Assembly (NCBI GenBank): GCA_001604005.1
Contig: LVAM01000010.1
Coordinates: forward strand, 209,079-273,078
Reading direction: 5' to 3'
Length of the DNA stretch: 64,000 nucleotides
Source of the DNA: Clostridiales bacterium Firm_07
GTDB taxonomy: Bacteria > Bacillota > Clostridia > Oscillospirales > CAG-272
Positions 50,044-52,919 of this stretch are shown piece by piece (positions within the stretch are counted from its first letter, which is position 1; the number at the start of each line of letters is the position of its first letter). Position numbers and translations under genes: made by a program. A model generated the notes under the pieces. That model was given only the letters and a program-made list of their open reading frames with translations. It was not told the origin of the DNA and ran no database searches.

Positions 50044-50072
50044 TTGCAATCCGGGGCGCTTTGTGCTATAAT
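50044..50072 (+). promoter_or_regulatory. Promoter for PqqD-like operon
   Basis: TTGCAA-N17-TATAAT with extended GTGC. Confidence 0.75.
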
Positions 50073-50117: not shown

Positions 50118-50387
50118 ATGAAACTACGCTATGAATTTGCCATTATGGATATGGGCGGAGAATATGCCGCCGTGCCCGTCGGAAAAGACGCGACCGAATT
50201 TCACGGTATGCTCAAACTCAACGCGGTTTCCGCCGATATCCTCGCACAGCTGAAAGAAGACACCACGCCGGAAAAGGTCCACGCGTATCTGCGGGGAAAA
50301 TATCCCGAATCGACCGACGATGAGATCGGCGCGAATTTGGTGAAGTTTTTGAACCAACTTTACCGCGAAGGGCTTTTGCAAATATAA
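50118..50387 (+). CDS. PqqD-family peptide-binding (RRE-like) protein
   Basis: 90 aa; MKLRYEFAIMDMGGEYAAVPVGKDATEFHGMLKLNAVSADILAQLKEDTTPEKVHAYLRGKYPESTDDEIGANLVKFLNQLYREGLL matches PqqD-like pattern; RBS GGAG. Confidence 0.85.
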   Translation: MKLRYEFAIMDMGGEYAAVPVGKDATEFHGMLKLNAVSADILAQLKEDTTPEKVHAYLRGKYPESTDDEIGANLVKFLNQLYREGLLQI

Positions 50388-50393
50388 GCGACA

Positions 50394-50867
50394 ATGAGCG
50401 CAGAATATACGTCGTTTGAAGACGAACTGAACGCGAGCGGCAAATTGATCTATACGAACGTCGGCGTCAGTATGCTACCGCTGCTGCGCCAAAATCGCGA
50501 TGTGATGGTCATTGAAAAACGCGTCGGAGCGCCCCGAAAACTGCAAGCCGTGCTCTTTCGCCGAGACGGTGTGAAAGGACGGGGCAGATATGTCGTTCAC
50601 CGGATCGTAAAAACGAAAAAGGACGGTCAATATTTCATCGCCGGCGACAATTGCACCGAGGGCGAATGGGTAAAAAAAGACAATATTCTCGGCGTCCTGA
50701 CAGCCGTCATACGCGACGGCAAAGAGATGGATTTCGGCGGCATACGGTATCGAATATATCTTCATTTTTGGTGCGCGCCCTATCACCTGCGCTTCTTTTT
50801 GTTGCGCGCCAAACGAGGGCTCAAAGCCTTCTTTTCCGCCGTGCGGTATAAACTTTTCGGTAAATAA
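50394..50867 (+). CDS. S24/S26 signal-peptidase-like protein
   Basis: YTNVGVSMLPLLRQNRDVMVIEKR ... AVLFRRDGVKGRGRYVVHRIVKTKKDGQYFIAGDNC. Confidence 0.8.
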   Translation: MSAEYTSFEDELNASGKLIYTNVGVSMLPLLRQNRDVMVIEKRVGAPRKLQAVLFRRDGVKGRGRYVVHRIVKTKKDGQYFIAGDNCTEGEWVKKDNILGVLTAVIRDGKEMDFGGIRYRIYLHFWCAPYHLRFFLLRAKRGLKAFFSAVRYKLFGK

Positions 50868-50886
50868 CTTTTTCGGAGTCTCTCTT

Positions 50887-51621
50887 ATGGATTTTACGAT
50901 TTCTCTTGCCGGCGTAAACATTGAAATTCACAGCCTTTACGGCGCGGTATATGAACTTTGCCGCGATTATCTGACTGATCATCGCCCCGATTTTACCGTT
51001 TCCATCGCTCCGGCGGACATCGAGTTCGAGCGGGAGAAGTCGGTTCTTGAAGCCGCGCGCGAGGGCAAGCCTTACGGCAATTTTACGGCGGATTATCTGG
51101 AAACGCTTGCCATTTACCGCAAGATCTCCGAAAACATACTGCGATACGACGTGTTTTTGATGCACGGTGCCGTGGTGGCGCTTGACGGCGCGGCATATCT
51201 GTTTACGGCGCCCTCGGGGGTGGGCAAAACGACGCACACACAGTTTTGGCTGAAAAAATACCCCGACGCCTTTATCGTAAACGGCGACAAACCGCTCTTG
51301 CGCGCGGTCGGGGGTCAAATTTTCGCCTGCGGATCCCCTTGGGCGGGAAAAGAAGGACAAAACCGCAACGTCATGCTGCCGTTGAAAGCCGTTTGCGCCC
51401 TTTTCCGCGGCAACGAAAACAGCATCCGGCGCATTGCGTTCGACAAGGTCTTCCCGCTCGTCATCGCGCAAAGTTACCGTCCGAGCGGTGAAGCGGAGAT
51501 GATGCAAACCCTTAGACTGATCAAAATTTTGGGAGAACATACTCGTTTTTACGCGCTGTCCTGCAATTTGGATCCCGACGCGGCGCGGGTGGCAAAAGAA
51601 GGGATGGACAACGATGAATAA
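50887..51621 (+). CDS. HprK-like (SerK/PadeK-type) kinase
   Basis: FLMHGAVVALDGAAYLFTAPSGVGKTTHTQFWLKKYPDAFIVNGDKPLLR...FACGSPWAGKEGQNRNVMLPLKAVCALFRGNENSI. Confidence 0.82.
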   Translation: MDFTISLAGVNIEIHSLYGAVYELCRDYLTDHRPDFTVSIAPADIEFEREKSVLEAAREGKPYGNFTADYLETLAIYRKISENILRYDVFLMHGAVVALDGAAYLFTAPSGVGKTTHTQFWLKKYPDAFIVNGDKPLLRAVGGQIFACGSPWAGKEGQNRNVMLPLKAVCALFRGNENSIRRIAFDKVFPLVIAQSYRPSGEAEMMQTLRLIKILGEHTRFYALSCNLDPDAARVAKEGMDNDE

Positions 51622-52759
51622 AGCCGAACTTACCCTTGCCGAACTGATCCGCGCTTCCCTCTTCGGTCTTCCGGCGATATTTGACGAAGACGTTGACTGG
51701 AACGACGTTTTGGCAGAGGCTGAAGCGCAGGCGGTTGTTGCGCTTGTGGCGGGCGCGGTGCCCGCCAAGGCGGCAAAATCGTGGCAAACGCCCGCGGATC
51801 AAAGCAAAGCGTACTTTATGCGCGTGCTCTATGAGCAAACCAATCTTACGGCACTGCTAAGCGGCGCCGATATTCCGTTTATCGTCTTGAAAGGTACCGC
51901 CGCGGCGATCTATTATCCGATCCCCTGCAACCGCACGATGGGCGACATCGACATTTTGGTGCCCGAGGGATATTTCGACGCCGCTTTTGCGTTGCTCCAA
52001 GAAAACGGCTACGAGTTTCGGCGCGATTTCGGCGACGATCGGGATTATTCCTTTTCAAAAAGCGGCGTGATCTTTGAACTGCACCGCAAATACAGCGATC
52101 AAAAGAACGATATCGAGGAGTATATGCGCGACGGTATGCGACACGCCGAAACGCACACGCTCTATGGGAGCGCCTTTCCCGCGCTCTCGAAAGCCGAAAA
52201 CGGACTGGTGCTTTTGGATCACATTCGTCATCACCTTTTCGGCGGTCTCGGACTGCGGCAGATCTTGGATTTTATGATGTTTGTCAACTCCGAACCGGAC
52301 GAGAAAAAGTTTGAAAGCGATTTTCTGCCCTTTTTTGAAAAAGCAGGGCTCGGCACGCTGGCAAAAGTGATCACCAAAATGTGCAAAAAGCACTTCGGAT
52401 TGCCCGTGGACGCCGCTTGGTGCGAAACGGCGGACGACAGGACCTGCGAAGAACTGCTTGAAACCGTGTTTTCCCGCGGCAATTTCGGCAGAAAAGATCC
52501 TTACGTATACCGCCCAATGCAATCTTTCGCCATGGGCGCCAAAACGGACGGCTTTTTCCGAACCTTGCAAAGGGCGGGGGTGGGAACTTGCAAAGTTTTC
52601 CAAAAGCACAAATTTCTGCGTCCCTTTGCGTGGCTGTATCAATTGTGCAAATGCGTCAAACGAGCGCTCGCGGCGCTGTTTCGCGGAGAGAAACTGTGGC
52701 GCGACGTCTCCGTCGGCAAAAAGCAAGCCGATTTCTACAAGCGCTTGGGGATCGAGTAA
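51614..52759 (+). CDS. Nucleotidyltransferase family protein (NTP_transf_5/PF14907-like)
   Basis: FIVLKGTAAAIYYPIPCNRTMGDIDILVPEGYFDAAFALLQENGYEF...ELHRKYSDQ; overlaps the upstream kinase gene. Confidence 0.85.
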   Translation: MNKAELTLAELIRASLFGLPAIFDEDVDWNDVLAEAEAQAVVALVAGAVPAKAAKSWQTPADQSKAYFMRVLYEQTNLTALLSGADIPFIVLKGTAAAIYYPIPCNRTMGDIDILVPEGYFDAAFALLQENGYEFRRDFGDDRDYSFSKSGVIFELHRKYSDQKNDIEEYMRDGMRHAETHTLYGSAFPALSKAENGLVLLDHIRHHLFGGLGLRQILDFMMFVNSEPDEKKFESDFLPFFEKAGLGTLAKVITKMCKKHFGLPVDAAWCETADDRTCEELLETVFSRGNFGRKDPYVYRPMQSFAMGAKTDGFFRTLQRAGVGTCKVFQKHKFLRPFAWLYQLCKCVKRALAALFRGEKLWRDVSVGKKQADFYKRLGIE

Positions 52760-52803
52760 AAATCAAAACGCGAGCGGACGCAAGACGCCCGCAAAACAAC
52801 ACA

Positions 52804-52845
52804 AAAACAGCGGTTTGTCCATCGGACAAACCGCTGTTTTTGTGG
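52804..52845. terminator. Bidirectional terminator between the PqqD operon and tRNA-Arg
   Basis: ACAAAAACAGCGGTTTGTCCATCGGACAAACCGCTGTTTTTGT. Confidence 0.85.
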
Positions 52846-52919
52846 CGCGGCATGGGGGATTCGAACCCTCGACCTACTGGTTCGTAGCCAGGCACTCTAT
52901 CCGGCTGAGCTAATGCCGC
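52843..52919 (-). tRNA. tRNA-Arg (anticodon ACG), CCA encoded
   Basis: Minus strand GCGGCATTAGCTCAGCCGGATAGAGTGCCTGGCTACGAACCAGTAGGTCGAGGGTTCGAATCCCCCATGCCGCGCCA; acceptor GCGGCAT/ATGCCGC; loop CTACGAA; one mismatch each in anticodon stem and T stem by eye. Confidence 0.9.

Follow-up and report, generated by a model that had tools for sequence, protein, structure and literature searches.

At positions 50118–52759 of the window, by which we mean the whole analysed stretch of 64,000 nucleotides, four open reading frames lie on the plus strand, spaced by 6 bp and 19 bp and then overlapping by 8 bp, just as tightly packed as the preliminary description had reported. In order, they encode an 89-aa RiPP recognition element (RRE) of the LppB (PqqD) type (50118–50387), a 157-aa signal-peptidase-like protein of the LppS leader peptidase type (50394–50867), a 244-aa LppK-type kinase with a predicted HprK/PEPCK fold (50887–51621) and a 381-aa LppN-type NTP_transf_5 transferase (51614–52759). 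A GGAG precedes the start codons of the first (PqqD) and the third (kinase) gene. The promoter proposed upstream is present as a TTGCAA-17-TATAAT site with an extended -10 element on the plus strand (50044–50072), which a consensus scan alone scored 10/12; such sites occur near chance frequency (8 per 8 kb vs 4.6 expected), so that the site is insignificant on its own. Behind the operon, a hairpin with a 20-bp stem (52800–52844, listed on the minus strand and read here on the plus strand) stands before a convergent tRNA-Arg and is likely the terminator region; the tRNA-Arg(ACG) gene itself covers 52843–52919. The G+C content of the block (52.8% vs 55.9% for the window) shows no clear sign of recent transfer. 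The genome carrying the window, G000, is a metagenome-assembled genome (MAG) that is 82% complete.

Two of the four proteins pass Pfam cut-offs, while the other two fall into no Pfam family. The 50118 protein is indeed PqqD-like (PF05402, 38.3 bits, cut-off 23.4), and the RRE profile (A4) matches the crystallised LppB structure 9x8z at E 1.3e-5 and also 9x90. The 51614 protein is an NTP_transf_5 member (PF14907, 126.5 bits, cut-off 31.2) that carries the MGDIDILV motif quoted earlier. A second PF14907 gene of G000 (L273, G000:C16:116610-117335) lies away from both kinase sets of this genome.

For the remaining two proteins we turned to AlphaFold models built from alignments of homologues. The 50394 protein gave only a weak sigpep_I_arch match (21.6 bits). 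Its model (pLDDT 91) retrieved signal peptidase I, SEC11 and LexA with Foldseek at probability 1.0 and E-values of 2.5e-3 or worse, and the predicted structure thereby settles, at the level of the fold, the signal-peptidase-like character that had been proposed for the second gene. The best PDB profile matches are SEC11C/A. Ser26, His69, Asp85 and Glu91 are invariant across 14 homologues, and in the profile alignment the catalytic Asp of SEC11 falls on Glu91. Compared with the Ser-His-Asp arrangement of SpI-like enzymes, the fold agrees, Ser26 and His69 are present and the acidic position appears to be the invariant Glu91. LppS (WP_029196374.1), which needs S29, H68 and D93 for leader removal (PMC13381572), would differ in this acidic residue, the comparison with LppS itself being made by description.

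The 50887 kinase has no Pfam match, and HprK_rel_A stays below threshold. Its model (pLDDT 96) matches PEPCK and HprK/P folds at E 1e-6 and 3e-5, so that the modelled fold bears out the earlier assignment as an HprK-type kinase. The quoted GSPWAGKEGQNRN motif is present. Additional motifs are His93, the P-loop SGVGKTTH, NGDKP and GSPWAGKEG; His93, Lys114 and Asp134 are among the invariant columns. The HprK-related kinase A family TIGR04352 (12.6 bits vs a cut-off of 200) and ScmC of the SynChlorMet cassette, TIGR04249 (11.7 bits vs 125), have only the HprK-like P-loop region in common with it.

The block had been described as possibly uncharacterised. This is out of date: in May 2026 Popov et al. 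reported this set of genes as the machinery for linear polyphosphorylated peptides (LPP), a class of RiPPs for which kinase, leader peptidase and RRE were tested experimentally (PMC13381572). A prior description of the four-gene block was among the outcomes that the preliminary description had named as refuting its proposal. For LppA of Paenibacillus, RRE binding, phosphorylation of Ser3 and leader cleavage were shown; the kinase polyphosphorylates the core Ser3, and the SipW-like LppS, assisted by the RRE, cuts the leader off. No activity was detectable for LppN in the published host (PMC13381572). The LPP clusters contain one to three precursors each, with the leader YxxPxVLxHQxIxFETxxS, and are linked to capsule loci in Bacilli (PMC13381572). 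The authors state that the biological role is unknown, and Clostridia do not appear in the text of the paper (PMC13381572).

The window block shares with the lppA-K-B-S-D-N cluster of Paenibacillus alginolyticus the discrete PqqD-type RRE, a peptidase that is SipW-like in its modelled fold, the PF14907 transferase (126.5 bits), the kinase of HprK-like modelled fold and an MsbA-like exporter, here at a distance of about 100 kb (PMC13381572). Neither system has a lasso cyclase, and the leader-core precursor of LPP, like the putative one here, carries Ser as the third core residue and varies at its C terminus. This likeness is one of families and folds, with LppS, LppK and LppN set beside our proteins by description.

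The block is no chance assembly. When gene neighbourhoods were tabulated, as the preliminary description had proposed, the same genes recurred, variously ordered, in the majority of some 110 related loci. Across 80 named loci, which come from Ruminococcus, Oscillospiraceae, Lachnospiraceae, Kandleria, Coprococcus and other groups, kinase, PqqD and S26 peptidase stand together in several orders, and an ABC exporter and a PF14907 gene frequently accompany them. In the kinase tree the window groups with L063 (support 0.997) within a clade supported at 0.973, most loci of which have the S26 gene before the kinase gene. G000 holds a second, diverged kinase-PqqD-S26 set (L037 8147-9582, G000:C19), flanked by glyS-like and topoisomerase-subunit (gyrA/parC-like) genes, a position that is conserved through the genus; exporter, NTP transferase and adjacent precursor are missing there. 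The window block looks lineage-specific, because G000 has two kinase matches, compared with a single match in every other kinase-positive congener of the sample (13 genomes). In L057-L060 (G048, G033), more distant HprK-like kinases have radical SAM and capsule-type genes as neighbours and possibly represent another RiPP type. The system also appears on records titled Alistipes, Paludibacteraceae and Synergistaceae (L118, L135, L142); each of these is a contig of a MAG and might be Clostridial DNA that was binned in error.

A candidate for the substrate of the window operon is a 139-aa open reading frame at G000:C10:362126-362545 with the leader MKMQTTELQVVRFAADDVIATS. It is homologous over its full length to a 133-aa frame that neighbours pqqD in L065; its homology to a 108-aa frame of L063, which is also adjacent to pqqD, is less complete. 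Downstream follow a 649-aa ABC exporter (ABC_membrane PF00664, ABC_tran PF00005) and then an acyltransferase-3-like gene (28.1 bits, just below the cut-off of 31), so that the group spans G000:C10 362126-365875, on the same contig about 100 kb downstream of the block. In the closest relatives, L063 and L065, precursor, ABC and acyltransferase-like genes are all beside the block, and the exporter adjoins it in L064 and L065. Thus, the LPP pathway is split in G000. Among the targets considered earlier, a trans-encoded peptide is, judged from the sequence, the most likely one; a stand-alone module is contradicted, since exporter and precursor exist and are merely unlinked in G000, and there is no need to invoke a non-RiPP target.

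The window-type precursors have no match in Pfam, and their profile (type II, A6) found no convincing relative in 287 other genomes of the class, from which we conclude that this subtype is rare or fast-diverging. At -17 of their leaders, Met or Ile takes the place of an aromatic residue in five of five precursors, and position -14 is P, T or A, while D(-3), V(-2) and Ser+3 are kept. In the G000 precursor both Tyr(-17) and Pro(-14) are missing, and the core far exceeds type-I cores in length. In LppB, D70 hydrogen-bonds the leader Tyr and N33 fixes the Pro kink (PMC13381572). Asp occupies the D70-equivalent position in 63 of 81 other RREs, whereas the seven full-length window-type RREs all have N, S, L, M, A, F or Y there; the N33 equivalent is kept. 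Since the sequences are interrelated, these counts are not fully independent. Residue mapping places Asn at the D70 equivalent of the window RRE itself, with the N33 equivalent again retained. This paired change, of Tyr in the leader and Asp in the RRE, amounts to a natural experiment on leader recognition as modelled in the published work.

A second precursor family (type I) emerged from the loci at large. A regular-expression hunt gave mostly noise, yet it exposed three short frames upstream of kinases, and the profile seeded with these found 37 peptide frames within the loci; NCBIfam has no model for them. The peptides occur in 40 of 288 class genomes, and 37 of these 40 carry one of 45 strong kinases; a further 8 genomes have the kinase alone, 3 have the peptide alone and 240 have neither. 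Among relatives the counts are 23/4/1/31 in the same order, with 23 of 24 peptide genomes kinase-positive, phylogeny being ignored. The co-occurrence tests ignore phylogeny throughout, and the pattern within the genus agrees (11/3/1/6, p 0.016). The precursors are mostly trans-encoded and scattered over contigs, the richest genome having at least 26. With the cut predicted to follow D-[VI]-[ILV] as the reference point, 81 distinct peptides have Y or F at -17 (99%), P at -14 (78%), D at -3 (94%), V or I at -2 (99%) and S at +3 (98%), the rest being variable. The consensus at the predicted cut is D[VI]I|TTS, in which D[VI]I fills positions -3 to -1. This register is that of the lasso leader (Y-17, P-14, L-12) and of the phospho-Ser3 of LppA, and it predicts both the cleavage site and the phosphorylated Ser of the Clostridial precursors. 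The family thus combines a [Y/W]xxP leader with a Ser3 core, and it goes beyond the published LPP description.

Taken together, we consider the operon to be one half, the tailoring part, of a pathway for an LPP-type RiPP with a trans-encoded precursor, at a probability of about 0.87. Folds, genes, co-occurrence, precursor family and motif register were observed; phosphorylation, the exact cleavage site, LppN action, acylation and the biological role we infer for this genome by analogy. LppB (50118) would bind the leader of the trans-encoded precursor, LppK (50887) would phosphorylate, perhaps polyphosphorylate, the Ser at core position 3, and LppS (50394) would cleave the leader two residues ahead of this Ser (DVI|ATS). 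LppN (51614) may put a sugar or a nucleotide on the phosphate, before the product would exit through the ABC exporter. The probable product of the pathway as a whole is a small peptide that has been phosphorylated, trimmed and given further decoration. It departs from the Paenibacillus system (PMC13381572) in the unlinked precursor and exporter (about 100 kb), in the Clostridial leader motif D[VI]I|TTS vs FET|xxS and, for the window subtype, in the loss of Tyr(-17) together with the RRE Asp that holds it.

The relationship to paeninodin-type lasso clusters that had been suggested is real as far as HprK-like kinase, PqqD-type B1 protein, NTP_transf_5 and ABC exporter are concerned, which are common to the paeninodin and pseudomycoidin systems (PadeK, PsmK, PsmN). 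In pseudomycoidin, Ser is phosphorylated and a hexose is added, PsmN being reported to put the hexose on phospho-Ser. The operon could consequently be imagined as a degenerate or split lasso cluster with cyclase and B2 protease elsewhere in the genome, and the leader register agrees with lasso rules. We hold this to be highly improbable. As noted from the sequence before, the block contains neither a macrolactam cyclase nor a B2 cysteine protease; an S26-type serine peptidase occupies the protease place, and no cyclase family is found among the clustered neighbours. G000 gave no PF13471 (B2) match, and the only one among 20 system genomes lies about 700 kb from its kinase. The strongest Asn_synthase match in G000 is a 612-aa AsnB-like frame, and a lasso origin was rejected on these grounds. 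The combination of YxxP leader and RRE, shown by type-I precursors and not by the window-subtype leader, is not diagnostic of lasso peptides because LPP has it in common; the paeninodin leader motif carries Trp, unlike here. The BsfA/BsfK lasso system of Bradymonas, whose kinase acts on Ser3 with RRE help and whose leader has Y(-17), P(-14), L(-12) and Ile(-2), possesses the lasso cyclase and B2 protease that are absent here (PMC10368454). An even slimmer chance is left to kinase and transferase acting on a polysaccharide, a lipid or another non-peptide target, with PqqD and S26-like proteins as unrelated neighbours. The distant kinases in the capsule-like and radical-SAM loci (L057-L060) and the published LPP clusters within capsule loci would fit such a role, but most loci keep kinase, PqqD and S26 as a unit, and these genes co-occur with the family of precursors.

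The LPP reading leaves room for an added role, to which the neighbours of the precursors point. For 40 of 44 distinct precursors (40 loci) a same-strand gene lies upstream at a distance of at most 250 bp. Among these upstream genes, 39 of which are distinct, the median gap is 19 bp and the median length 744 aa, and a simple signal-peptide rule classifies 31 of the 39 as secreted vs 31 of 156 other genes (p 6e-12). Many of these partners have C-terminal domains in common. The largest such domain, A7, for which Pfam gives single weak matches only, occurs in 9 of 288 genomes, all of them peptide-positive; 19 of 23 A7 places have a peptide (>14 bits) within 1.5 kb, one of them, in L257, on the opposite strand. 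Three A7 places had served as profile seeds, and among independent places the count is 15 of 20. From this gene arrangement we read the linkage as a functional coupling, which suggests that the peptides have a job at the cell surface. Clostridial LPP could then be a surface-protein system, with one lpp machinery, many peptides and a co-transcribed secreted partner for each, through whose C-terminal domain the exported peptide would be bound or otherwise coupled; the LPP chemistry would be kept. The enrichment of secreted upstream genes and the restriction of A7 to peptide-positive genomes speak for this tentative proposal. However, its basis is genetic linkage, the window-subtype precursor of G000 is not behind a secreted-protein gene, and the partner domains form at least four groups with no similarity detected between them. 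A genome-wide set of trans-encoded phosphopeptides, each coupled to its co-transcribed secreted protein via a C-terminal domain, with the window operon as a subtype of changed leader and RRE, is consequently a possibility that we rate somewhat below even. If true, it would be a previously unrecognised route for decorating, anchoring or regulating surface proteins.

The window block is hence a member of the known LPP kind, and the dispersed precursors behind secreted-protein genes, for which the text of PMC13381572, to the extent searched, gave no counterpart, are among the features that go beyond the published account. With dozens of precursors, mostly directly behind a large secreted protein, these Clostridial genomes offer a concrete lead on the role of LPP, and their carriers are common gut and rumen bacteria. 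Because of this pairing, the role is testable by co-expression, binding and localisation. Cluster-based RiPP mining would probably miss such precursors, since they are far from the tailoring genes. In G000, a probable type-I precursor (MKERYQKPSALILPLFSVDVIATSPGGG..., L204 5707-5841, G000:C5) lies 64 bp before a lipoprotein-like gene and is probably served by the G000:C19 set. Precursor-like peptides also occur in G312, G116 and G276, which have no strong kinase match; G312 additionally encodes several A7-domain proteins with peptides behind them.
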